NCBI GenBank assembly: GCA_020852705.1
Contig: JADZAP010000031.1
Coordinates: 1-64,000 of the forward strand
DNA: 64,000 bases
From: Ignavibacteria bacterium
GTDB taxonomy: Bacteria > Bacteroidota > Ignavibacteria > Tepidaquicellales > OLB5
Direction: 5' to 3'
Part shown: positions 6,101-28,929 of the stretch, in pieces
Numbering within the stretch: the first letter of the stretch is position 1
Layout: the number at the start of each line of letters is the position of its first letter
Notes under the pieces: generated by a model
Told to the model about the DNA's origin: nothing
Database searches by the model: none
What the model saw: only the letters and a program-made list of their open reading frames with translations
Program-made: the position numbers and the translations under genes

Positions 6101-9100
6101 AATTTCAAGTGATTCCGCTAAAATGCTTATAGATTTGGGTTCAATTTCTGAAAAGATTATTTCCAGCAAAAAGATGCCGTTAAATTCTTCTAATCCAAAT
6201 ACAAATTATCACACTGAAGATAAAAACAGCAGCGGGCAACTTGATGTTGGTGAAGATAACGGTATTGACGGTCAGCCAAACAGTATGGAAAATTCTATAT
6301 ACCCGGAACTAACCGCTGAAACAGGAGGAGACCCCAGCCGTGATGATTATGGCTGGACACAGGGCAGCACAAATTACACCCGTTTTAACGGAACAGAACA
6401 AAATGCAACAAACTTAACAGAAGCAAAAAGAATTGATACAGAAGATCTTAATAATAACGGAACACTTGACAGGAACAATAATTATTTTGAATATGTAATA
6501 CCTTTAGATTCAAATTCTTTCAAAAATCATCCGTTTATTGCTGGAGGCGGTAATGCAGGGTGGTATCAATTCATAATCCCTCTTGATCAATGGAAACGTA
6601 CAATTGGGAATAATGCAACTTTGACCAATATTCAGTATGCAAGGTTATGGTTCAAAGGATTCAGCGAGCAAACACAGATAAAGATAGTTGATATAAATCT
6701 TGTTGGAAACCAATGGGTAAAAACAAATAAAAGCGATACAACATATTCAGTTTCAGTAGTAAATATAGAAGATAATCCAAACTACTACTCCCCTCCTGTA
6801 GATGGATTAAGGCAAAAGGATCAGACTCAAGTTGACCAAAATGTGCTTTCAAACGAGCAGTCTATGTCACTTGATGTGAATAATCTGCTACCAGGTCAAA
6901 CTAAAACAGTTTTTAAATCGTTCACAACCAGACCAATTGATCTGGTTAACTATAAAATATTAAAATTATTTGTAAACGGAGATAGTTCATTTGCTTTTAC
7001 AAATCCAAATAACTATGATGCATCTGTTGTTGTAAGATTGGGAAGTGATACATCTAACTATTATGAATACCGTGCCCCAATCCATCCGGATGTTAGACCG
7101 ATGACCCCTTGGCAGGCATTGAATGAAGTAATAATAAATTTGGCAGATCTTTCAGCAATAAAACAAAAAGCCGATAGTACGGGATTAATACATTATGAAA
7201 ATGTTCCAAATGGACCCCCGGGTTCATTATACGGAGTGATTGGTAATCCTTCAATCAGAGATGTAAGGCAGATAACTTTGGGAGTTTACAATAATAACAG
7301 CGACCCCATTATAACTAAAAAGCTAACGGGCTCTGTATGGTTTGATGAATTAAGGGTAATAAAGACAAATGATGCCAGTGGATATGCATTTACATTAAGT
7401 GCCGGATTGAAAATTGCAGATCTTGCACAGCTTAATTTCAGCTTTAACAAAACAGATCCAAACTTCCACTCTCTTGAAACAAGTTTTGGAAATTTAACTA
7501 CTGCAAACAGCTGGGAACTTTCCGGAACATTGAATGCACATAAGATAATAAATGCACTGCTTTCAAAATATGTTTCTGTAAAATTCAGGAACTTCTTCAC
7601 GATTCCAATATCATTTTCGCATCAGGAAATACTTGATAAGCCCAAATATCTTCCTGCTACCGATATAGATCTTGAAACAGCAGCAAATAACAAATATGCA
7701 GAAATGCTAGCAAAGACTGGCAGCGAAGAAATTGCTTCATATTATGCTGATCAGATAAGGGTATCCTCACAGACATTAAGAATTGCAAATAAGTTTTCAA
7801 TTACGGGTGCTAAATTTACTTTCCCCGGAGATAATTTCTTTGTAACGCAGTTATTAAATAAAATTGAAGTAAATTTTGTAAGAAATACGTACACAGAAAG
7901 AACTCCAACACTTGAAAGTAAATACGCCTGGGATATGAACGGTTCAGTTGGATTAACATCAGATATTGATTTAATGAATTCATTAAATCTTAAGATTGGG
8001 AAATTTCTTCCGTTTGGTGAAGAGTTTTCGCAAGCAAGAATGTATTTCTTTTTCCCCTTTATGCCATTGGCACCTCTGTTTTCAAATAACATTGCACTTT
8101 CGGGAAGTTTTAGCCGTACACATGGTGATGAAAAACTTCGTTCAAGTTTTAACCCGAGTCCTACTTCAAGGCAGTTTAATGCCAACAGAGGATTTACTTT
8201 GAACTGGAAATTTCTTGAAAACTGGATTATTGATGTAAATGGTGATTATTCCTTCCGTTCGGGCAGTGACCTTACTTATCTTGAAATTGATTCTCTGCAG
8301 CAGCAGCGTTCAAATGCAGAAATTTACGATGACATATTTTTTAATAACGGACTAATCAATTGGGGGAAAGATCTTGATTACTCGCAAACGGTTTCAATTA
8401 ATCCAAAATTCAATATACCGGGTTTAAGAGAATTTGTTGATCTAACAGGCAGTTACAGAGTTATTTACGGCTGGCGTGCTTCTCAGTTTAACAACGCACA
8501 GGGAAGCAATGTTGGGTATAATTCAGATATACAGGCAACAGCATTTTTAAAATTGAAAAATATCTTCAGTTTGTTTAAACCAAATAATAAATTGATGAGC
8601 GGCGGTAAATCATATCAAGATCAAAACCCGGGTGATATTTTAAAACTTCTTGGCACATTTATTCCAGATCAAATTTCAGTAACTTATGCACAAACAAAAC
8701 AATTGCAAAATCCTGCAATTGAAGGAAGACCTGGATTTGGAAATTTCTGGATGACATTTTACTCAAAGGAAAATTTGGGACCTTCAAGGATGTATCAGCT
8801 TGGATGGGCAACTGACCCGGGTAAACGTATTTCTAATCTGAGTATAACAGATAATCTGAACCTTAACACATCTTATACTTTTAATACATTTATAAACCCA
8901 ATATTCCCTAATAACCTTAAATTAAACTTTACATATAAAACCGGCACAACTAATACAAATGCATTAAGTTATAATACAGATCCATTCGGAAACCTTGGTT
9001 TACCTGTAAATACTGTAACAAGCAGAACAATTTCCAGACCAAGTTTTTTTGTTTCGCTTGGCGATAATATAGCTGATAAATTAGGAATTCCCTTACTTGG

Positions 9101-9806
9101 CGATACAACAAATCAGGCAATATTTTTTGCAAATAATTTTGAAAAAAACTTAGTTTCATTTCCCTTCCCAAGCTGGACACTATCACTTACAGGAATTGAA
9201 AAGTTTGAAATGTTTAAAAATATTGCACAGGCAATAACACTTGAAAGCGGTTACTCAAGTGAATACCGCAGGGTATTAACTTTTGACGGAAGAAATCCTG
9301 AATATATAAGTGCACAAGCATTAACTTCGGGATTTTCACCTTTAATAGGAGTTAATTTTACATTTAAACAAATATCAGGAGGCAACTTAACAGCATCATT
9401 TAAACTCAGCAAATCAGATAATTTTGTTATGGAACCGCAGAATGCTAAACTTACAAATACTGCAACTAATGATATAGCAATTAATGCAAGCTTTACAAAA
9501 TCAGGATTTTCACTTCCATTGTTTGGATTATCACTTGACAATAATCTGACTATTTCATTCAGTTATACTAGAACAAAAAACGATCCACAGGTATATTCAT
9601 TTCAATCAGGTTTGTGGGAAGCAAATTCACAGAACGGTTCTACATCAACAACTCTAAATCCATCAATTCAGTATAATTTATCAAAAAGTGTTACCATGCA
9701 GCTGTTTTACAAATATACAAAAATAGAACCTACAGGAACAAATCTGCAGATAACCACACGAACAACCAACGAAGCAGGTTTAAATATCAGACTGCAGATA
9801 CAATAA
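3198..9806 (+). CDS. sprA: SprA/SovA, outer-membrane translocon of the type IX secretion system
   Basis: This 2202-residue protein is the giant 36-strand beta-barrel through which T9SS cargo leaves the periplasm. Size and features fit: a signal peptide ending near NAQGRD, a long series of beta-rich segments, Asp/Asn-rich EDKNSSGQLDVGEDNG and DTEDLNNNGTLD loops characteristic of the family, an IAYVDDFEG motif, and a terminal aromatic/alternating strand pattern (EAGLNIRLQIQ). Translation appears to begin at TTG 3198, directly before the signal peptide; no in-frame ATG sits nearby and the ribosome-binding site is weak. The downstream SemiSWEET gene starts 1 bp after the stop. A putative T9SS cargo protease is encoded at 15470-17197. 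Confidence 0.95.
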   Translation: MLKFRSNLIKFLFITALISVVFYHTKETNAQGRDRSKFQLGFVDTTGSYIDTSLISDTTKIRGPVDSTARVNNFKYERTDEPLPDYGIWKSSLLLYGSSQVNYNIQIDSLNNVIITEKLGEDQLKVPLKIPLEEYIKLRSELNIKDQFYRIVSDKYPIETEGDLEKLFKNITEITIPLPFATETIFGPPTINLKINGIIDITASYQKSTNDLQTILSETQNQNNINFKQEVQVTTKGTVGDKLTVDADWNSQRTFEFENQLKLKYTGYPDEVIQSIEAGNVSLETRSNLIGSTQALFGVKAQFKLGPLTLTTIASQKKSEKKEVNITGGTVETPFDISIYDYSENNYLLDERWGHFFTRYYTGQSVPLDVTDVQVWVYAEPNNPNKRFVYGVDTLGLKPTGGYVFNDTTTAVPGHVLIGNFVKLDASEFTWNRYAGYITLTGNLQAYGKDAIAVAFKYSDSTGTGKQIGDFVNDVGPNAMLKLRLLRYESQKPPDQDPEYTRLWNRMLKNIYNLGVRNIKNDPTNLDFNIFYTEPGQSPNPTYTGSGPRQGRSYLNITGLDYRRNGDPSTIVPDGDNAFDFFPGNTIDLTTGNIIFPSLKPFSETLIQKQIDTTFIGRNELIYVSSKTTVQNSGFIKFSLKGKAKGDASSRYSLGFNVVDGSVKVFNGSVELTPGVDYSVDYSLGELVIINASALVAGANLKITYETNDLFQLASKTLLGTRAELQLNKNSYIGFTLINLKQQTLNNKIRIGEEPTNNTIIGFDASTDIKTNFLTKLINKIPGYNTKDESILNLKGEIAFMLPDPNTLKSVIPSDNGEAIAYVDDFEGVKKVIPLGLNPLSWTLSSLPYDNNLVPNIINEDDRDSLMSRKRSRLNWYNLLNNVPILEVYPFRSVASNQNQTLTPLVFDIKPDSVGPYNYIKQTDFNAEGPPKNKWSGVFKFINSSQTNLLDENINYIEVWMQVNGGNPISSDSAKMLIDLGSISEKIISSKKMPLNSSNPNTNYHTEDKNSSGQLDVGEDNGIDGQPNSMENSIYPELTAETGGDPSRDDYGWTQGSTNYTRFNGTEQNATNLTEAKRIDTEDLNNNGTLDRNNNYFEYVIPLDSNSFKNHPFIAGGGNAGWYQFIIPLDQWKRTIGNNATLTNIQYARLWFKGFSEQTQIKIVDINLVGNQWVKTNKSDTTYSVSVVNIEDNPNYYSPPVDGLRQKDQTQVDQNVLSNEQSMSLDVNNLLPGQTKTVFKSFTTRPIDLVNYKILKLFVNGDSSFAFTNPNNYDASVVVRLGSDTSNYYEYRAPIHPDVRPMTPWQALNEVIINLADLSAIKQKADSTGLIHYENVPNGPPGSLYGVIGNPSIRDVRQITLGVYNNNSDPIITKKLTGSVWFDELRVIKTNDASGYAFTLSAGLKIADLAQLNFSFNKTDPNFHSLETSFGNLTTANSWELSGTLNAHKIINALLSKYVSVKFRNFFTIPISFSHQEILDKPKYLPATDIDLETAANNKYAEMLAKTGSEEIASYYADQIRVSSQTLRIANKFSITGAKFTFPGDNFFVTQLLNKIEVNFVRNTYTERTPTLESKYAWDMNGSVGLTSDIDLMNSLNLKIGKFLPFGEEFSQARMYFFFPFMPLAPLFSNNIALSGSFSRTHGDEKLRSSFNPSPTSRQFNANRGFTLNWKFLENWIIDVNGDYSFRSGSDLTYLEIDSLQQQRSNAEIYDDIFFNNGLINWGKDLDYSQTVSINPKFNIPGLREFVDLTGSYRVIYGWRASQFNNAQGSNVGYNSDIQATAFLKLKNIFSLFKPNNKLMSGGKSYQDQNPGDILKLLGTFIPDQISVTYAQTKQLQNPAIEGRPGFGNFWMTFYSKENLGPSRMYQLGWATDPGKRISNLSITDNLNLNTSYTFNTFINPIFPNNLKLNFTYKTGTTNTNALSYNTDPFGNLGLPVNTVTSRTISRPSFFVSLGDNIADKLGIPLLGDTTNQAIFFANNFEKNLVSFPFPSWTLSLTGIEKFEMFKNIAQAITLESGYSSEYRRVLTFDGRNPEYISAQALTSGFSPLIGVNFTFKQISGGNLTASFKLSKSDNFVMEPQNAKLTNTATNDIAINASFTKSGFSLPLFGLSLDNNLTISFSYTRTKNDPQVYSFQSGLWEANSQNGSTSTTLNPSIQYNLSKSVTMQLFYKYTKIEPTGTNLQITTRTTNEAGLNIRLQIQ

Positions 9807-9807
9807 C

Positions 9808-10065
9808 TTGGAAAACTTTACTTTGGTTTTGGGACTTACTGCTGCATGTTTAACAACATTTGCATACCTGCCTCAATCAATAAAAGCAATAAAAACCCGT
9901 CATACAAAGGATATTTCCTTCCCAATGGTTATAATGCTTGAAATTGGTTTAATTATCTGGCTAATATACGGAATATTAATAAACAGCCTGCCAATAATAG
10001 CAGCAAATACTGTTTCAATTGGGTTTATGACAATTATCCTTATAATGAAAGTTAAATATAAATAA
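9808..10065 (+). CDS. SemiSWEET sugar transporter
   Basis: An 85-residue protein with three hydrophobic helices and the PQ-loop signature: TTFAYLPQSIKAIKTRHTKDIS, in which the Pro-Gln lies in helix 1. This is the bacterial SemiSWEET (MtN3/saliva) family; dimers of three-helix subunits carry mono- or disaccharides across the inner membrane by facilitated diffusion. The length is normal for the family. The start is TTG at 9808, one base after the sprA stop, so it is probably translated by coupling to sprA and lies at the end of its operon. No functional tie to T9SS is known. Confidence 0.9.
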   Translation: MENFTLVLGLTAACLTTFAYLPQSIKAIKTRHTKDISFPMVIMLEIGLIIWLIYGILINSLPIIAANTVSIGFMTIILIMKVKYK

Positions 10066-10357: not shown

Positions 10358-10432
10358 GGTGAGCGTAGTTCAGTTGGTTAGAACATCAGATTGTGGCTCT
10401 GAGGGTCGGGGGTTCGAATCCCCTCGCTCACC
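10358..10432 (+). tRNA. tRNA-His(GTG)
   Basis: Cloverleaf with acceptor GTGAGCG/CGCTCAC, anticodon GTG in the loop TTGTGGC, T arm with GGTTCGAATC and an encoded extra 5' G (10358) facing discriminator C (10432), the hallmark of tRNA-His. Confidence 0.95.
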
Positions 10433-10492
10433 CCAAACTCCCTGAAAATTTAACATATAAAGCAATAAACACCCTATTAACTGTTAAATTTC

Positions 10493-10524
10493 ATTGATTA
10501 TTAAAGTCATTAAAATTATATTTG
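10493..10524 (+). promoter_or_regulatory. Bacteroidota-type promoter of secD
   Basis: ATTG (10493-10496), a 20-nt spacer and TATATTTG (10517-10524) match the -33/-7 promoter of this phylum. Transcription would begin around 10531, giving a 5' leader of about 40 nt before the secD start at 10571. The same layout precedes the exported operon at 17673. Confidence 0.6.
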
Positions 10525-10570
10525 TTTCTTAGACTTTTTAGGAAATTTTCAAAATTTACAGAGGATTAGT

Positions 10571-12622
10571 TTGAAAAAAAATCGGTTTCGGATATTTTTA
10601 ACATTGTTATTTTTAGGACTTTCCCTATACTTCTTATATCCCACATATAAGGATTATCAGTTCAATAAAGAAATAAGTAACCTAAAAAATGCACAGGATA
10701 GTGCTGCATTTTTTGATAAATACAGCAATGACATACTGAAAGCACGTGACAACAGGATAAAACTTGGGTTAGACCTTCAGGGCGGGATGTATGTAATTAT
10801 GGAGGTTGATATTGCCAAACTGCTAAATGACCTAGCAAAAAAACAGGATGATATATTAAAACAGGTACTAAATGCAACATCAGAGCAGACAAAGAATACA
10901 GATGAGGATTTTGTAGATGTTGTTGAAGTAAAATTACGCGAGAAGGGATTATCATTAAAAGCATATTATGGTGAAATAAGGGATGAAGAAAGTACGGTAA
11001 AATCTACTTTAAAGACTGAGGTTGAAAATGCAATTGACAGAGCAATACAGGTAGTAAGAAACAGAATTGATCAATATGGTGTATCTGAACCGGTAATACA
11101 GAAAAAAGGTTCAAGCAGACTTGTTGTTGAACTTCCAGGTGTAAGCAATGTTCAGGAAGTAAGAAAGCTGCTTCAAGGAACTGCGCTACTTGAGTTTAAG
11201 TTAGTTATAGATCCCCAGATTGCAGTAAAAGTTATGGAAAAAATTAACACTTACATGGCAGGCGGTAATCTTGATTCATTAATGAAGGCTGATTCTTTAA
11301 ATAATATTTCTAAGAATGAGATAAAACATGACAGTTTGAAAATTAAAAAAGATTCTACATCTATTACCTCAACAAAAGATACAACTAAAAAAGATATTAC
11401 AAAAAAGGATACAACAGGGAATAAGAAAAAAGATTCCAGTAAGAAAAATATTACAGGCAAAGATTCAATTAAAAAAGAAGATTCAAACACTGCAGGATTA
11501 ACCGATACTAACTTGAATAATCTTGATACAAATCAGCAGTTGAGTGAAGAGGAATTTAAGAAGAAAAATCCATGGTTCTATCTTGTAAGACCGCAGCAGT
11601 TTCAGGATGGTTCTTTGGTATGGCTTGTTAAAGAAACTGATAAGGCAAAAGTACTTAAAATTTTAGAGAAAAAAGAAATTCAGGATTTAATTCCATCAGA
11701 AATAAGTTTTGCATTCAGCAACCGTTCATCTTTTGTAGATAACGGAGAAAAAATTTATACTTTTTATATTCTTAAAAAAGAACCCGAATTAACAGGAGGT
11801 GTTGTTGTTAATGCAAGGTCAAATATTGACCCAACAAGCAACTCACCGGTTGTATATATGGAAATGAACAGTGAGGGTTCAGCTGACTGGGCAAGAATTA
11901 CCGGTTCAAACATTAACAAACAAATAGCAATTGTACTTGATAACGTTGTTTATTCCGCACCGGTTGTAAGAAATAAAATAACAGGCGGAAATTCACAAAT
12001 TGAAGGAATGGCAAATATACAGGAAGCTAAGCTTCTTGAAATTGTGTTAAAAGCCGGTGCACTTCCTGCTCCGCTTACAATTATTGAAGAAAGAACAGTA
12101 GGACCTTCACTTGGTGAAGATTCTATTCAAAAAGGTTTATATTCTTCATTAATAGCATTGATACTAGTTGCATTATTTATGGTAGTATATTATCATTTTG
12201 CAGGAGGAGTTGCAGACCTAGCGCTTATATTTAATTTGCTTTTTGTTATGGGTATTATGGCAAGTTTTCATGCTACATTAACTCTGCCCGGTATTGCAGC
12301 TTTAATACTTACTATTGGTATGTCTGTTGATAGTAATGTACTTATATATGAGCGTATCAGGGAAGAAGTTACCGGTGGAAAACCTTTAAGAACTGCAATT
12401 GAAATTGGATATAAAAAAGCTTTTTCTGCAATTATAGATTCACACATTACCTCAATTATTACAGCTATTATTCTTTATCAGTTCGGAACAGGTCCTATAC
12501 AGGGATTTGCTTTAACACTAATGATAGGTCTAATTGCCAACTTGTTTACTGCAATAGTAATAACAAGAATAATATTTGATGTTATGACTGAAAAAGGCAA
12601 AACTTCAATTAACTTTGGATAA
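10571..12622 (+). CDS. secD: Protein translocase subunit SecD
   Basis: SecD works with SecF at the inner membrane and uses the proton gradient to pull exported proteins out of SecYEG. The 683-residue protein has an N-terminal membrane helix, the conserved LGLDLQGGMYV, the first periplasmic domain with RVDQYGVSEP-like text (NRIDQYGVSEP), and five C-terminal helices with TIGMSVDSNVLIYERIREE. The odd part is residues ~240-325, an insertion dominated by Lys, Asp, Ser and Thr with repeated KKD motifs, which interrupts the periplasmic region. Start is TTG 10571 behind AGAGGA. secF follows after 20 bp. Confidence 0.96.
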   Translation: MKKNRFRIFLTLLFLGLSLYFLYPTYKDYQFNKEISNLKNAQDSAAFFDKYSNDILKARDNRIKLGLDLQGGMYVIMEVDIAKLLNDLAKKQDDILKQVLNATSEQTKNTDEDFVDVVEVKLREKGLSLKAYYGEIRDEESTVKSTLKTEVENAIDRAIQVVRNRIDQYGVSEPVIQKKGSSRLVVELPGVSNVQEVRKLLQGTALLEFKLVIDPQIAVKVMEKINTYMAGGNLDSLMKADSLNNISKNEIKHDSLKIKKDSTSITSTKDTTKKDITKKDTTGNKKKDSSKKNITGKDSIKKEDSNTAGLTDTNLNNLDTNQQLSEEEFKKKNPWFYLVRPQQFQDGSLVWLVKETDKAKVLKILEKKEIQDLIPSEISFAFSNRSSFVDNGEKIYTFYILKKEPELTGGVVVNARSNIDPTSNSPVVYMEMNSEGSADWARITGSNINKQIAIVLDNVVYSAPVVRNKITGGNSQIEGMANIQEAKLLEIVLKAGALPAPLTIIEERTVGPSLGEDSIQKGLYSSLIALILVALFMVVYYHFAGGVADLALIFNLLFVMGIMASFHATLTLPGIAALILTIGMSVDSNVLIYERIREEVTGGKPLRTAIEIGYKKAFSAIIDSHITSIITAIILYQFGTGPIQGFALTLMIGLIANLFTAIVITRIIFDVMTEKGKTSINFG

Positions 12623-22290: not shown

Positions 22291-23625
22291 TTATACCGCA
22301 TCAGATAAACTTGAGAAGTTAAAATCAGCTGTTTTTATTGGCGGTACAACCAGAGGGTAATCACCGGTTTCACTTCCAACAGCTTTTTCAGTCTTTCCAA
22401 GCTCTATAATATTTTTAAATACATCCATCGGGCTTTCATTAAACCTGAAATTTTTAACAGGCCTTGTTATTTTCCCGTTCTTTATTTCAAAAACTCCGTC
22501 ACGGGTTAGACCGGTAAAAAGCATTGTTCTTGGATCAACTGACCTTATATACCAAAACCTTGTAACAAGTATTGCTTCATCGGTTTGAAGTATCATTTCA
22601 TCAAGTGATTTTGAACCTCCCTGCATAATAACATTTGCCGGATATGGAATTGAAGGCTGTGAAGTTTTTTCAGCCCAAAACCTGTTTCTGTGAAGATTTC
22701 TTAAAACTCCGTTTTCAAACCAAATGGTTTTATTCAATGGCTCACCGCTGTAAGAAAAAGTGGATGTTGGTGCAAGCTTATCGGCAGGATCGCTGTAAAT
22801 ATTTAACATACTGCTGGCAATGCTTTCATCAATTAATGTACCACCGCCCTTTTTTGAAAAATAACTTCTGCCTTCATCTGCCCATCGGGAGCTCATAGAA
22901 TTAATACATAAGCTTAGCATATCAGCAGCAGCAGCCGGTTCAAGGATTACAGTATATCTGCCGGGTTTTATTTCTGCAGGATCAATGGATAATTTTGAAC
23001 GGTTAATTGCCCAGTCCGCCAGTGCTTTGTATTCTATATCACCTGAATTAATATAACACTTCTCAAATCTGCCAGAGCCTGTACCGTCAGCTGTTCTTAT
23101 AGTTGCTGAAAGACTTGCAAGCGAAGCTTTATTATATGCAAACAAACTGTTTGAGTTCATTAAGGCATTAAATGATACACTATCTTCAGAAAAACCTGCT
23201 GCAGTAACACTTCCTGAAACTGCATTTTCAAGAATATAAGAAATCCTCTCTGATCTTTGCTCACCGGTAAGGTTTTCCGTTTCACCGGAAAAATTATATG
23301 CTTCAGAATAATTTTGTTGAGCAAGCAGCGGCATATATTCCTTGTTCTCTGGTGAAAGTTTTGCAATATCCTCTGACTTTTTTATAGTTTCTTTTATAGA
23401 TATATCATCAAACTTGTTAGTTGAGGCTGAACCTGATTTTTTACCGAAATAACTTGTAATATTCAATGTTAATCCGTCTGAAAAACCGTTGGTGGAAATA
23501 GAATTTCTTGCAAATCTGATATTGTAAGTATTATTGCCGTCTAATGATGCAGAAACTGCATCAGCTTTTGAATTTGTTAGAACTTTTTCAAGCAGGTTCT
23601 TTGCTTCATTTTCACTAAGAATCAA
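22291..23625 (-). CDS. TldE/PmbA-family protein, partner of TldD
   Basis: A 444-residue member of the TldD/PmbA family. TldE is the non-zinc partner; the TldD-TldE heterodimer is a protease that trims unfolded peptides. In agreement, no HExxxH motif is present. The C-terminal half carries the family text TFSYSGEPLNKT, MLFTGLTRDGVFEIKNGKI and VKNFRFNESP. There is no signal peptide. It starts with TTG at 23625, overlapping the tldD stop by 4 bp (TTGA), behind an excellent AAAGGAGG; the overlap implies coupled translation with TldD. The ribosome-binding site makes this start secure. Confidence 0.88.
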   Translation of the reverse strand: MILSENEAKNLLEKVLTNSKADAVSASLDGNNTYNIRFARNSISTNGFSDGLTLNITSYFGKKSGSASTNKFDDISIKETIKKSEDIAKLSPENKEYMPLLAQQNYSEAYNFSGETENLTGEQRSERISYILENAVSGSVTAAGFSEDSVSFNALMNSNSLFAYNKASLASLSATIRTADGTGSGRFEKCYINSGDIEYKALADWAINRSKLSIDPAEIKPGRYTVILEPAAAADMLSLCINSMSSRWADEGRSYFSKKGGGTLIDESIASSMLNIYSDPADKLAPTSTFSYSGEPLNKTIWFENGVLRNLHRNRFWAEKTSQPSIPYPANVIMQGGSKSLDEMILQTDEAILVTRFWYIRSVDPRTMLFTGLTRDGVFEIKNGKITRPVKNFRFNESPMDVFKNIIELGKTEKAVGSETGDYPLVVPPIKTADFNFSSLSDAV

Positions 23626-25217
23626 TTTCCCGCCTCCTTTGATGTATTCAATATTTTTACCTTTCTAAATCGTGCAGGTGAAGCACCATGACTTACCGGT
23701 GAAACCTGTCCGGGTTCACCTTTACCGCAGAAAAATGAACCTCCCAGGTGATATTCGCTTTTGTCGCAAACTGCATCACACGAATTCCAAAGGTCAACTG
23801 TGTTTCCCTGATAGGCAACATCTTTTAACATCTGAGAGATCTTTCCGTTTTTAATTTCCCAAAACTCCTGCCCTGTGAACTGAAAGTTATATCTCTGCAT
23901 ATCAATAGACCAGCTTCCTGTACCTTTAATAAAAATACCATCTTCAGTATCGGCAATCAGATCGTTTAGAGAAAGTTTATTTTTACCCGGCTGTAAAGAA
24001 ACGTTGGGCATTCTTTGAATTGGAAAGTGGTCCCAGCTATCTGCATAAGCACAGCCATTGGATGCAGTTTCCCCTATAAATTTTGCCATTTCGCGTGTTG
24101 TTTGATATCCAACAAATCTGCCTTCTTTAATTATATCCCATTCCTCTGTTTTTACTCCATCATCATCATATCCTCTGGTTGCCAGACCGTCCTTTTGAGT
24201 TCTATCTCCTTTAATGTTTACAACATTACTGCCGTATTGCAGTTTCCCAAGTTTATCAGGCGTCATAAAACTGGTTCCGGCGTAATTTGCTTCAAAACCA
24301 AGTGCCCGGTCAAGTTCAGTTGGATGCCCGCATGATTCATGTATAGTAAGCCAAAGGTGATTTGCATCAAGTATTATATCACGTTTTGCCGGTTCAACCG
24401 ATTTTGCTTTAAATTTCATTTTTGTATGCTCAACAGCTTCTTCAAGATCTTTTTGCCAGTTATAGTCATCAATATATTCGTAACCTTTGCCAATAGGCAC
24501 TGTAAATGAATCTCTTGATTCAAACCCTCCGGTTGATTTATCAACAACTGTTACATCAAATGCAGTCCAAAGTCTGTGCAAATCCTGTTTTATATACGAA
24601 CCTTCTGAAGATGCAAAATATTTCCATTCATTTACAGCCCATATAAAAGAATTGCAGTAATCAGCACCATAAAATTTTGCCTTTTCATTCAATGCAAATA
24701 AAAAATTAACCTTATCAGAAATAGGTACTTCAAAAGCATTTTTTTTGATTGGAGTTGACCATGTATCATTGTAAGCAGGCACCGGAACAAGCTCTACTTT
24801 GTTTCTTTGTATTTTATTGTTTGCTTTTGCTGTTTCGCAGGCAATTTTTGTTATCTTGAGGGCTTCTTCTTCACTGAATGTAGAGCTTGCAGCAAAGCCC
24901 CAAGTACCTTCAATAATTACTCTGACAGCAAAACCATAATTTTCACCTTCTCTGATATTCTGTATTACCTGTTCACGTGTTGAAACATTCTGTGAGCGGA
25001 AATTACTCAGACGGAAATCGCAATATGATGCCCCTGCTGATTTTGCAGCACGCAAAACACTATCGGCAACTTTTTTTATAAAATCATCATCGTAAAATTT
25101 ATGCTTAGTCTCAATAACAGAATTTTCTGCTCTCAATACACTGCCCCCTATATTATTTGAAAAAACTGCTCCCGGCACAGCCAAAGAACAGCATTTTATA
25201 AAATTTCTTCTTTTCAT
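23622..25217 (-). CDS. TldD-family zinc metalloprotease with twin-arginine-like signal
   Basis: A 531-residue TldD. The catalytic HExxxH is in LTIHESCGHPTELDRAL, and family text includes GLATRGYDDDGV, RMPNVSLQPG and the C-terminal region. E. coli TldD is cytoplasmic, but here the protein opens with MKRRNFIKCCSLAVPGAVF, a twin-arginine motif followed by a hydrophobic stretch, suggesting Tat export. Its partner gene tldE overlaps by 4 bp and has no signal, so either the pair travels together or only TldD is exported. It is first in the tldD-tldE-xer run. Confidence 0.88.
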   Translation of the reverse strand: MKRRNFIKCCSLAVPGAVFSNNIGGSVLRAENSVIETKHKFYDDDFIKKVADSVLRAAKSAGASYCDFRLSNFRSQNVSTREQVIQNIREGENYGFAVRVIIEGTWGFAASSTFSEEEALKITKIACETAKANNKIQRNKVELVPVPAYNDTWSTPIKKNAFEVPISDKVNFLFALNEKAKFYGADYCNSFIWAVNEWKYFASSEGSYIKQDLHRLWTAFDVTVVDKSTGGFESRDSFTVPIGKGYEYIDDYNWQKDLEEAVEHTKMKFKAKSVEPAKRDIILDANHLWLTIHESCGHPTELDRALGFEANYAGTSFMTPDKLGKLQYGSNVVNIKGDRTQKDGLATRGYDDDGVKTEEWDIIKEGRFVGYQTTREMAKFIGETASNGCAYADSWDHFPIQRMPNVSLQPGKNKLSLNDLIADTEDGIFIKGTGSWSIDMQRYNFQFTGQEFWEIKNGKISQMLKDVAYQGNTVDLWNSCDAVCDKSEYHLGGSFFCGKGEPGQVSPVSHGASPARFRKVKILNTSKEAGN

Positions 25218-25508
25218 TGGTTTAACTTTGCGGTTAATGTAAAAATATACATTTAATAAATTAATTTCAATTGAATCAATATTTCATACTGTGTATTAAT
25301 TTTCGAATGAATTTACTCTTCATATTACCTTTTATAATATAGCCTAAATTTGTAAGTTTGAAAATAACGGAGTGTTATTCTTAAGTAAAAGGAATTTAAC
25401 TTTATCAGTAATGGTAATTTTTAAGAATTTTTTGAACAAAAGTAAAAAGGAATTATATTGGATAATTGTATTACAACAGTACAATAAAACTTATAGATAA
25501 AAATATTT

Positions 25509-26426
25509 ATGACATTTTTAGAATTAGCCGAAAGAGTTTTAAGTGAAGAAAAACGTCCACTGACTGCCAATGAAATTTGGATACTGGCGACAGAGAAAAG
25601 TTATGACAAACAACTTAACAGTATAGGCAAAACTACTTGGGCAACACTTGGTGCACAGATTTATGTTAATGCAAAAGATAATCCCAGATCTCCATTTGCA
25701 TAGACATTTAGCAGACCAAAAAAGTTTTACCTAAAATCGCAAGCTAGCCAACTCGATCTTGCTGAAACATCAATTTCAATAGAACCATCAATAGCTAAGA
25801 AAAAGCGTTTTGATTTTTTAGAAAAAGATTTACACCCCACTTTAACATATTATGCTTACTACCATTTAAATTGCTATACCAAGACAATTAACCATTCACA
25901 ATCTACCAAAAAGGAATTTGGAGAGTGGGTTCACCCTGACATAGTTGGTTGCTACTTTCCACTTGACGATTGGAAACAAGAAGTTTATGAATTAAGTTCA
26001 TCTATTGGTAATATTTCAATTCGGTTGTTATCATTTGAATTAAAACGTGAACTAAGCTTTGGAAATTTAAGAGAAAGTTTCTTCCAGACAGTTTCTAACT
26101 CTTCTTGGGCTAATGAAAGCTACCTAGTTGCCGCTGAAATTTCCGAAGAAGAAGAATTTAGAAGTGAACTTTCTCGCCTTTCAACATCTTTTGGAATTGG
26201 TGTAATCAAACTAAATTTTGATGACCCTCATTCTTCTGATATTATTTTTCCTGCAAAGTATCGAGAAGCTCTTGATTGGGAAACAATAAATAAACTTACT
26301 ATGAATTCAGACTTTAAGGAATTTATTTCTACAGTTAAAATTGATATTACTAGCAAGAAAATTCACAAAAAGGAATACGATCAAGTTCCAGATATTGAGG
26401 CATTAAAACGCAAGTCAGATGATTGA
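25509..26426 (+). pseudogene. HARE-HTH / HrgA-like gene broken by one in-frame amber codon
   Basis: A single frame of 305 codons runs from ATG 25509 to TGA 26426 with one interruption, TAG at 25701-25703 (codon 65). Before it lies a HARE-HTH winged-helix domain (FLELAERVLSEEKRPLTANEIW). After it the text resumes in the same frame: TFSRPKKFYLKSQ, a linker, then a nuclease-associated HrgA/COG2958-type domain (LLSFELKRELSFGNLRESFFQTVSNSSW). HrgA was named in Helicobacter for a gene that replaces a restriction enzyme; the COG is found around restriction and mobile genes. No methyltransferase is near. The rest of the frame is clean, so the mutation is recent, an assembly error, or a read-through site. 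Confidence 0.8.
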
Positions 26427-26476
26427 AACAGCAGGACTTCTTAACTGAAAAGAATGGAATTACTGCTTATAACACA

Positions 26477-26590
26477 GGTTTTACATATAGCTGGAAGATG
26501 TGTAATATCAAAAAAATTTGCACTACTTTGAAATTTAATTGCTAAATTCATCTAACGGTGTTCAAAATCTCCGCCATTTGTAAAAGTTTC
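26477..26590. repeat. Imperfect palindrome downstream of the HrgA-like gene, possibly attC-like
   Basis: An arm around 26477-26500 (GGTTTTACATATAGCTGG) and one around 26565-26590 (CCGCCATTTGTAAAAG) pair imperfectly: TTTTACA against TGTAAAA is exact, the rest partial. TATAACA and CTAACGGTG lie at the edges. This layout recalls the folded attachment sites of gene cassettes, but the match is weak. Confidence 0.2.
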
Positions 26591-26613
26591 CAACCACCAC
26601 CACTCTCTCCCGC

Positions 26614-28929
26614 CTACACGCTCTCGGCTGTTTCTTTTGATTCAATTTCTACTTTGTGCTTGCACTCGGGACACTCGAGGTAGGGACCTTTTTTCTTTGA
26701 GTATTTTTCTAGCATGTAAGTACTGCCGCAAAGCTCGCATTTGGTTTCACGCGGTCTGCTGTTTGATATGAAATCACAATCGGGGTATCTTGTGCATCCA
26801 AAGAATATTTTTTTGGATTTAATAGCTTTACGCTCCAATATTTCACCCTCACCGCACTTGGGGCATTTTATGCCCAATGTTATCGGCTGAATATTTTTGC
26901 ACTCAGGGTACCTTGAGCAGCCGAGGAATTTACCATACTTGCTTGACTTAACCACCATTGGCGCTCCGCAAATATTGCATATCTTGCCTTCGGCAAGTTC
27001 CTGATGTTCTTCCTGCTCGCCGGGCAGCGGCTGTGCATTTTTGCACTTTGGATATTTGCTGCATGAAAGGAATCGCCCGTTTCTCCCCCATTTAATCAGC
27101 ATTGGTGCCCCGCATTTATCGCAAACTATATCGGTATGTTCAATTAGTGATTCTTTTATTTCCTTTGTCTTTTTGTTTAAGAACTCAAGATCCAAATTAA
27201 ACGGCAGGTAAAAATCATCAAGAACTTTTTTGTATGTAAGCTCTCCCTCGGCAATTTTATCAAGTTCTTCTTCCATTTGAGCTGTAAATTTTACGTTTAT
27301 TACATCATTAAAATGAGCAGCAAGCAATTTGTTTACTGTTTCACCAAGTTCTGTGGCGTAAAGTTTTCTTTCTTTTAGGTCGCTGTATGTTCTGTTTATA
27401 ATAGTAGAAACAATCAGCGCATAAGTGGAAGGTCTTCCGATGCCAAGATTATCAAGCTGTTTGATAAGACTTGATTCAGTGTATCTTGGGGGCGGATTAG
27501 TGAAATGCTGTTTCTTAAATAGCTCTTTCAAATCAACTATATCGCCAATTTCAATTCCATCCGGAATTGAAAACTTATCTTCATCATCAGTTTCTTCATC
27601 TTCAAACATATCTTCATACAATGCCAGGAAACCCTTGAATTTTACTGTTGAATCGGTTGTACGAAATTGGTATAAATTTGATTTTTTACCGTTACTTGAT
27701 TCTGTGAAAGAATCAATAAGCAGAGTTATCTGATCACTAACAGAGTTTTGCATCTGGCAGGCAACAAATCTTTTCCAAATAAGCTCATAGAGCTTATATA
27801 AATCAGGAGTCAGGTCTTTCTTTAGACTCTCAGGTGTACGCCAAACAGAAGTAGGACGAATAGCTTCGTGGGCATCCTGTGTATTTTCTTTCTTTTTGGA
27901 ATATACTTTTGGTGCTGAGGGTAAATACTCCTTGCCGTATTTATCTTTAATATATCCTCTGGCTTCGCTTACTGCATCCTGGCTAAGGCGGGTTGAATCA
28001 GTTCTCATATAAGTAATAAGTCCTGTTAAACCTTCTTCACCAATATCAATACCTTCATAGAGTTTTTGAGCAAGCATCATGGTTTTTTTGGGTGCAAAAC
28101 GGAGTCTAACAGAGGCATCCTGCTGAAGTGAAGATGTTGTAAATGGAGGGTAGGGATTTCGTTTTACTTCTTTCTTGGTTATATCACTTACTTTAAACTG
28201 CTTGGAATTTAGATCATTTATAATTTCTGCAGCATGGTTTTCATTTTCAATTTTTGGGTTATCACCATTGAACTTAAATAATTTTTCATTCTGTGAAACT
28301 AACTTTGATTCAAATACTTTGTTTCTTGCTTTATCGTTAAAGTTTGCAAGAATGCTCCAGTATTCACTTGGCACAAAACTTCTTATCTCTTCTTCCCTAT
28401 CACAAATTAATCTAAGGGCTATAGACTGCACCCTGCCGGCAGATAAACCGTAATAAATAACCTTCCATAAAAATGGACTTACTTTGTAACCAACAATTCT
28501 ATCAAGTGCACGGCGTGCCTGCTGTGAGCTTACAAGTTTATCATCAATTTGAAGCGGATTATTTATGCCTTCTTCAACACCTTTTTTGGTAATTTCATTA
28601 AATAAAACTCTGTAAATATCATTATTTTTTTCTTTAACTTCCTCAGCAATATCAAATGCAATTGCTTCGCCTTCACGGTCAGGGTCAGTTGCAATAAATA
28701 TTTTATCAGCAGATTCAGAAAGTTCTTTAAGCTCATTAATTACTTTTTCCTTTCCCGGAATAGTTTCATAAGTAAGCTCATAGCCGTTTTCAAAATCTAC
28801 ACTTATTTTGCTTTTTGGAAGATTTTTAATATGTCCAACTGAGGCAATAACCTTATATCCTTTGCCGAGATATTTATTTATTGTCTTAGCTTTTGATGGT
28901 GACTCAACTATTACTAACGATTTTGCCAT
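26614..28929 (-). CDS. topA: DNA topoisomerase I
   Basis: TopA relaxes negative supercoils by a transient single-strand break. The 771-residue protein begins with the Toprim domain (LVIVESPSKAKTINKYLG and the DPDREGEAIAF motif), carries the active-site Tyr in GLITYMRTDSTRLS near residue 310, and ends with four zinc-ribbon units (about residues 590-765), each built on CxxC pairs such as CDKCGAP, CNICGAP, CPKCGEG and CELCG. Length and domain count fit a Bacteroidota TopA. It is followed on the same strand by nothing; upstream is smg, a neighbour conserved in many bacteria. Confidence 0.97.
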   Translation of the reverse strand: MAKSLVIVESPSKAKTINKYLGKGYKVIASVGHIKNLPKSKISVDFENGYELTYETIPGKEKVINELKELSESADKIFIATDPDREGEAIAFDIAEEVKEKNNDIYRVLFNEITKKGVEEGINNPLQIDDKLVSSQQARRALDRIVGYKVSPFLWKVIYYGLSAGRVQSIALRLICDREEEIRSFVPSEYWSILANFNDKARNKVFESKLVSQNEKLFKFNGDNPKIENENHAAEIINDLNSKQFKVSDITKKEVKRNPYPPFTTSSLQQDASVRLRFAPKKTMMLAQKLYEGIDIGEEGLTGLITYMRTDSTRLSQDAVSEARGYIKDKYGKEYLPSAPKVYSKKKENTQDAHEAIRPTSVWRTPESLKKDLTPDLYKLYELIWKRFVACQMQNSVSDQITLLIDSFTESSNGKKSNLYQFRTTDSTVKFKGFLALYEDMFEDEETDDEDKFSIPDGIEIGDIVDLKELFKKQHFTNPPPRYTESSLIKQLDNLGIGRPSTYALIVSTIINRTYSDLKERKLYATELGETVNKLLAAHFNDVINVKFTAQMEEELDKIAEGELTYKKVLDDFYLPFNLDLEFLNKKTKEIKESLIEHTDIVCDKCGAPMLIKWGRNGRFLSCSKYPKCKNAQPLPGEQEEHQELAEGKICNICGAPMVVKSSKYGKFLGCSRYPECKNIQPITLGIKCPKCGEGEILERKAIKSKKIFFGCTRYPDCDFISNSRPRETKCELCGSTYMLEKYSKKKGPYLECPECKHKVEIESKETAESV

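Follow-up and report, generated by a model that had tools for sequence, protein, structure and literature searches.

A HARE-HTH/HrgA-like gene with an in-frame TAG in an Ignavibacteria bacterium: a probable stranded integron cassette with relatives in arrays of an insert-less IntI-like integrase

Introduction

The additional domain of integron integrases is said, by the title of a 2001 paper of Messier and Roy, to be necessary for their activity. The presence of this domain was the feature by which integron integrases were picked in the methods section of PMC2426708, and the occurrence of integrons in Chlorobi and Ignavibacteriae is in itself already on record (PMC9024848). In the journal papers on integrons that were surveyed, including PMC8618304, PMC9024848, PMC9668308, PMC2426708 and PMC12772301, integrons whose integrase lacks the additional domain are not described. 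For HrgA, passages of two papers indicate that hrgA of Helicobacter pylori takes the place of hpyIIIR beside hpyIIIM (PMC6563999, PMC4687069). Here, we analyzed a stretch of 64,000 nucleotides of an Ignavibacteria bacterium (assembly GCA_020852705.1, contig JADZAP010000031.1, positions 1 to 64,000; referred to as the window), which carries a HARE-HTH/HrgA-like gene with an in-frame TAG codon on its forward strand (25509 to 26426). We consider it probable that this gene is a stranded integron cassette, the recombination site of which has decayed and which was later broken by a nonsense mutation, and that its intact relatives are carried in arrays with an integrase that lacks the IntI insert.

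Results

The reading frame and its in-frame stop

The frame opens with an ATG at 25509, meets the TAG at codon 65 (25701 to 25703) and continues without change of frame to a TGA ending at 26426 (305 codons counted through the stop). Apart from codon 65, no stop or frameshift was found in this frame. Among 32 aligned relatives, 28 cover the column of codon 65 and all of them carry a sense codon there. The other four rows are uninformative at this position, either because they were aligned on the wrong strand (L005, L007) or because they are truncated (L029, L033). Five different residues occur in this column, which suggests a tolerant linker position. The alignment of the relatives spans the TAG over their full length, which argues for one gene instead of two neighbors, and none of the relatives examined has a gene split at codon 65. 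Two separate adjacent genes were ruled out on this basis. The original prediction had proposed a TAG at codon 65 in a single frame that is undamaged on both sides, and our analysis confirmed both points. Some other close copies are also damaged: the copy at L032 (6001 to 6510) is fused after about residue 143, the one at L011 carries a late frameshift (6840 to 6873) and the one at L029 (5992 to 6489) is truncated at its 5' end. Taken alone, the TAG-bearing gene is an ordinary pseudogene of modest interest.

Cassette boundaries and the attC-like site

The nearest relatives of the gene belong to other families and to another phylum, with a protein identity of 90% for genome G027 and of 84-93% for Bacteroidota metagenomes. 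When the copies at L010, L031, L032 and L034 were compared (6 pairs), the identity was 32% before a GTTATAG core upstream of the gene and 97% from this core onward. Several relatives have an imperfect hairpin 3' of the gene, which is mostly 132 nucleotides (nt) long, runs from TAAC to GTT and involves two complementary arms. On the Ignavibacteria contig L011, a 151-nt stretch holding the hairpin is present as five ungapped direct copies between successive open reading frames (ORFs). A covariance model of this site (R1) was built from 24 training sites with the window excluded, most of them from loci that were searched again later. For all 15 predicted pairs, at least one sequence had both sides changed with pairing retained. 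An R1 site at E ≤ 0.01 was found in 13 of the 32 gene-bearing loci, a count in which part of the sites had trained the model, and in 8 of the 32 the site started less than 200 nt from the gene end. No hairpin of the attC-like type was detected by scan in 431 kb of shuffled sequence, and no Rfam family reached its gathering score at the attC-like site on L043, L011 and L042. From their sequences, the relatives in Ignavibacteria and Bacteroidota can be read as gene cassettes, which start exactly at a GTT core and several of which carry an attC-like hairpin after the gene.

In the window itself, the best R1 match with filters off (19.3 bits, E 0.048; runner-up 16.1 bits) lies immediately 3' of the gene on the forward strand (26467 to 26602), and we interpret it as a decayed attC-like site. 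Upstream of the gene, a nine-copy flank alignment judged by eye places position 25452 on the GTTATAG core of the relatives, which points to a decayed R' core at 25452 to 25458 (forward strand). The whole decayed cassette would extend on the forward strand from 25452 to 26592.

Insertion between a tldD-like gene and topA

The left neighbor of the gene is a tldD-like gene on the reverse strand (23622 to 25217; NF040952, E 7e-44, below the cut-off of this model) and the right neighbor is topA, also on the reverse strand (26614 to 28929; TIGR01051, 812.5 bits, above the cut-off). None of 12 other genomes of the genus carries the HARE-HTH/HrgA-like gene. Two of these genomes gave no match in the empty-site comparison, and in all 10 alignable loci topA and the tldD-like gene are adjacent and only tens of bases apart; in the window their distance is 1,396 bp. 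Both ends of the decayed cassette fall inside the stretch that is absent from the 10 loci. The earlier description of the gene as the sole evident accessory gene of a core-genome run is correct at the local scale, since its flanking genes are direct neighbors in 10 of 10 same-genus loci. On the tldD side, about 235 bp of AT-rich sequence (25218 to 25452) are also absent from the 10 loci and are not explained by the cassette.

Arrays that carry the relatives

R1 sites were present in 23 of 59 genomes around the host genome G000, with 32 sites in G027, 31 in G048, 17 in G016, 16 in G030 and 7 in G000. Within the arrays, the strand of the sites carries 48 of the 49 ORFs that are 100 aa or longer. 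This count covers eight loci with intervals above 5 kb omitted, and the sole opposite ORF overlaps a 133-aa ORF of the site strand in L011. In five of nine integrase loci (L043, L099, L100, L101, L102), the sites follow an IntI-like integrase, which is truncated in L101, on the same strand. This arrangement, with sites after the integrase and on its strand, was also found on a Chryseobacterium plasmid (L163; NZ_CP041688.1), for which five sites reached E 7e-8 or better. Behind the three related integrases of L043, L099 and L101 there is a common sequence that ends in GTTA and after which the cassettes diverge; by eye, it resembles an attI site.

The arrays hold a variety of other cassettes. 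The first cassette of the G027 integron (L043, 9172 to 10665) carries a pair like that of a cyclic oligonucleotide-based antiphage signaling system (CBASS), in which a nucleotide cyclase (PADLOC E 2e-113) is combined with a Cap15-type receptor (PF18153, E 4.5e-30). In the same genome, a Hen1/Pnkp RNA-repair pair forms a cassette (L098, 15659 to 19628), for which Hen1 scored 694.9 bits and a full-score Pnkp match was found among the array proteins. Tandem cassettes of 233 nt that hold no ORF and have a 92-nt site occur in at least two places of G027 (L043, 12252 to 12809; L045, 4595 to 5152). Two neighboring cassette genes of the G048 array (L100) resemble a Sul3-type dihydropteroate synthase (9254 to 10057; 353 bits, cut-off 475) and a Tet(A)-type efflux protein (10388 to 11572; 256.7 bits, cut-off 475). 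Since both scores are below the resistance cut-offs, we do not claim resistance.

A related arrangement was observed on the Acinetobacter indicus plasmid p80-1-2-tetX3 (NZ_CP041297.1; L162, 5992 to 8185). Here, tet(X3) is bordered on one side by a truncated integrase (221 aa, GLR-to-RH[ST] span 97), which is related to the insert-less ones and is accompanied by an attI-like GTTATG sequence, and on the other side by the left half of an R1-type site, which is itself truncated (19.8 bits, E 0.045). Judging from this layout, tet(X3) looks like the first cassette of an integron of the insert-less type. The flanking stretch of this locus is found in 111 plasmid records, 88 of them at ≥99%, and some records match the recombinase end only.

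An IntI-like integrase without the insert

The segment from GLR to RH[ST] comprises 94-98 residues in seven measured integrases of this group versus 139 in two canonical IntI and 101-106 in Xer; the IntI insert of roughly 40 residues is absent from these enzymes. In a midpoint-rooted tree of 26 sequences, the insert-less integrases form a cluster with two canonical IntI from the same class, one of them partial (L068, 195 aa), and apart from XerC/XerD (support 100/100). Most of the insert-less integrases end in an SPLD-like motif. Their scores with the curated IntI model TIGR02249 (208 and 203.5 bits) are under the cut-off of 265, and the best NCBIfam match is NF040815 (XerA-type), with 230.5 bits for G027 (cut-off 220) and 212.2 bits, below the cut-off, for G000. 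Among the 59 genomes, none with R1 sites has an integrase above the IntI cut-off. A host-encoded canonical IntI was rejected as a candidate, since such an enzyme was found in only two of the 59 genomes (G045, G055), neither of which has an R1 site.

Protein family and predicted nuclease fold

The first 64 residues match the HARE-HTH family PF05066 with 44.9 bits (cut-off 25.9; E 1.5e-11). The domain covers residues 1 to 63 (25509 to 25697, forward strand), the TAG stands at its end, and it is present in all 27 intact relatives. In tblastn the protein matched genes annotated as 'HrgA protein', among them an HrgA of a Helicobacter plasmid with 30.8% identity at 98% query coverage (E 1e-29). Full-length relatives with this annotation name are found on plasmids of Helicobacter, Alteromonas, Vibrio and others (19 matching plasmid records). 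No phage-borne relative was found at 1e-5, and no PDB sequence matched the protein family. The remainder of the protein beyond the HARE-HTH domain has no Pfam, NCBIfam or PADLOC family. A thiolase match in the family search (E 0.12) was attributed to chance and a zf-PARP match (E 0.19-0.38) was too weak and was set aside. Membership in a known defence family was also rejected because neither the whole protein nor either half matched a PADLOC or NCBIfam family.

Five residues (P143, D144, E177, K179, Q193) are invariant in all 27 relatives and intact in the window copy, where they define the core of a probable PD-(D/E)xK nuclease domain (25935 to 26087, forward strand). In an AlphaFold2 model of L008, an intact relative from a Sediminibacterium metagenome (mean pLDDT 84), these residues are on or beside the strands 145-149 and 172-182. 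The top structural match was the type IIS endonuclease PaqCI, which aligned to residues 102-292 with Z-scores of 9.1 and 8.9 over 133-143 residues. For the Z 9.1 alignment (133 residues), the root-mean-square deviation was 3.5. A further match was 3dnx (Z 8.5, 131 residues), and the first Foldseek rows included FokI, Cap4, EcoT38I and Ecl18kI, none of them with a significant E-value. Taken together, these data suggest that the protein probably belongs to the PD-(D/E)xK nucleases, carries a winged-helix-like domain for DNA binding and is related to annotated HrgA. Most likely, the intact protein would bind DNA via its HARE-HTH domain and cut it as an accessory, restriction-like defence nuclease. 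The HARE-HTH/HrgA label given to the gene in the original prediction was borne out by the PF05066 and tblastn matches, and the model makes a nuclease fold probable. The association with a restriction locus was not supported here: no methylase is present beside the gene, which is flanked by the tldD-like gene and topA and which seems to have moved as an integron-type cassette, a mode of transfer that the original prediction had not foreseen.

Selection, genetic code and competing explanations

Pairwise ratios of non-synonymous to synonymous substitution (dN/dS) between the window copy and five close copies were 0.049-0.051. Changes specific to the window copy comprise 48 synonymous and 15 non-synonymous ones, which corresponds to a pN/pS of 0.076 (other copies 0 to 0.136). 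This value is a count against the majority codon and not a branch model; it omits codon 65 and was obtained after masking of the last four codons of L011 and of the L032 tail. The window copy differs at one (P43) of the 51 columns that are invariant in 27 relatives and retains all five proposed catalytic residues. Together, these values suggest that selection acted on the gene during most of the time since it separated from the other copies, and that the stop is either recent or an error.

If the TAG were a sequencing or assembly error, the gene would be intact and the locus would hold a stranded yet working cassette. The open frame, the intact catalytic residues and the strong purifying selection are compatible with this possibility, as is the fragmentation of the assembly into 75 contigs. 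Nevertheless, we regard it as unlikely. Single-base assembly errors are rare, the copy also deviates at P43, which is invariant in 27 of 27 relatives, and together with this change the decay of the mobility site fits a copy that is in the process of loss. A recent nonsense mutation is the likeliest origin of the TAG and is favored over an error.

The gene might also have been transferred differently (by a transposon, a plasmid or homologous recombination of its flanks), and the hairpins might be unrelated repeats, for instance repetitive extragenic palindromic (REP) sequences or miniature inverted-repeat transposable elements (MITE). We consider such a route rather improbable. It is true that 19 of the 32 loci have no R1 site. 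However, the GTT boundary in four copies, the direct orientation of all sites of an array, the location of 48 of 49 ORFs on the same strand as the sites, the presence of an integrase and an attI-like sequence where arrays begin and the absence of such a hairpin from 431 kb of shuffled sequence argue for cassette movement.

The genome uses the standard genetic code. Release factor 1 (RF1) is present (523 bits), none of the 40 tRNA matches of the genome has a CUA anticodon, and in the window 4 of the 35 ORFs that start with ATG and comprise 200 aa or more end in TAG. These findings make suppression or an altered code unlikely, and both were rejected. Between the stop and 26025 there is no in-frame ATG, GTG or TTG; the first such codon, at 26025, is past the P143-D144 motif, so that re-initiation would lose this motif. 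The expected product would be a 64-residue DNA-binding piece. Read-through of the TAG, or separate functions of the 64-residue HARE-HTH piece and a downstream piece, is very improbable, since the variable linker residue at codon 65, at which any inserted amino acid might perhaps be tolerated, and the persistently low dN/dS are outweighed by the presence of RF1, the lack of a CUA anticodon among 40 tRNAs, the lack of an ATG, GTG or TTG start ahead of 26025 and the lack of a split gene in the examined relatives. Of the three options in the original prediction (knock-out mutation, error, read-through), the knock-out is best supported and read-through is unlikely.

Discussion

Our data are consistent with the following scenario. 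A single-gene cassette encoding a HARE-HTH domain and a probable PD-(D/E)xK nuclease would have entered between the tldD-like gene and topA in this lineage, either by an integrase of the insert-less type or as a rare event at a secondary site. The recombination site of this lone cassette would then have decayed while the protein was still under purifying selection; with its site decayed, the cassette would no longer be mobile. Later on, the nonsense mutation at codon 65 would have cut the protein just after its DNA-binding domain, and because the stop directly follows the HARE-HTH domain, synthesis of the nuclease domain would be expected to have ceased. Intact relatives appear to be carried in Ignavibacteria and Bacteroidota arrays with an IntI-like, insert-less integrase. 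Of this scenario, the stop, the sequence conservation, the decay, the empty site, the boundaries of the cassettes in the relatives and the layout of the arrays were observed, whereas movement by an integrase, insertion at a secondary site, nuclease activity, a role in defence and the nature of the stop as a true mutation are inferred.

Several observations weigh against this stranded-cassette scenario. On its own, the R1 match in the window (E 0.048) is weak, and its value lies chiefly in its position. The stretch missing from the relatives measures about 1.35 kb and the cassette about 1.14 kb, which leaves some 235 bp unaccounted for. Among the 12 other genomes of the genus, R1 sites were found only in G003, and the 7.4-kb contig that holds the integrase of G000 has no R1 sites, so that entry via the host's own integrase is not supported. 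As for the protein, no significant PDB match was found by Foldseek (best E 0.085) and a structural Z near 9 is only moderate. Finally, the TAG could be an assembly error.

For a wider interpretation, the arguments on both sides appear balanced to us. According to this interpretation, Ignavibacteria and Bacteroidota hold a distinct, complete type of integron. Its integrase would be related to IntI but lack the additional domain, which is regarded as a requirement for IntI activity, and the element would further comprise an attI-like site and attC sites of mostly 132 nt. Integrons of this type would transfer cassettes from one phylum to another and carry them on plasmids, with HrgA-like nucleases and a CBASS pair among the cargo; one such integron would be the origin of the mobile tet(X3) module in Acinetobacter, in which tet(X3) would represent the first cassette. 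If this is true, surveys that choose integrases by the additional domain would miss this type of integron. If insert-less integrases are active, cassette recombination does not generally depend on the insert, and the transition from Xer to IntI can be put to the test. There would also be a reservoir of cassettes, with genes for nucleases, CBASS and RNA repair and genes that resemble those for antibiotic resistance, that has so far been counted only as orphan sites or missed. The stranded cassette would illustrate how a mobile accessory gene turns into a fixed and then into a dying chromosomal gene, but the main value of the broken gene is as a pointer to integrons whose integrase lacks the insert that is used to define and find integron integrases.

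When compared with known systems, the window gene shares with HrgA (hrgA of H. pylori, RefSeq 'HrgA protein') the full-length similarity and the N-terminal HARE-HTH domain; it differs in that it has no adjoining methylase, appears to have been carried as an integron-type cassette and is broken in its frame. The arrays resemble integron cassettes, attC sites and clusters of attC sites lacking integrases (CALINs) in their directly repeated imperfect hairpins, which end in a GTT core and have one orientation, and in the integrase and attI-like site upstream. In contrast, their sites are mostly 132 nt long and their integrase lacks the IntI insert. NF040815 also matches housekeeping Xer and has matches in 58 of the 59 genomes, so that this model does not single out the array integrases. 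With IntI (TIGR02249), these enzymes share their place in the tree and, in most cases, the SPLD-like end, but they are without the additional domain and score below the curated cut-off.
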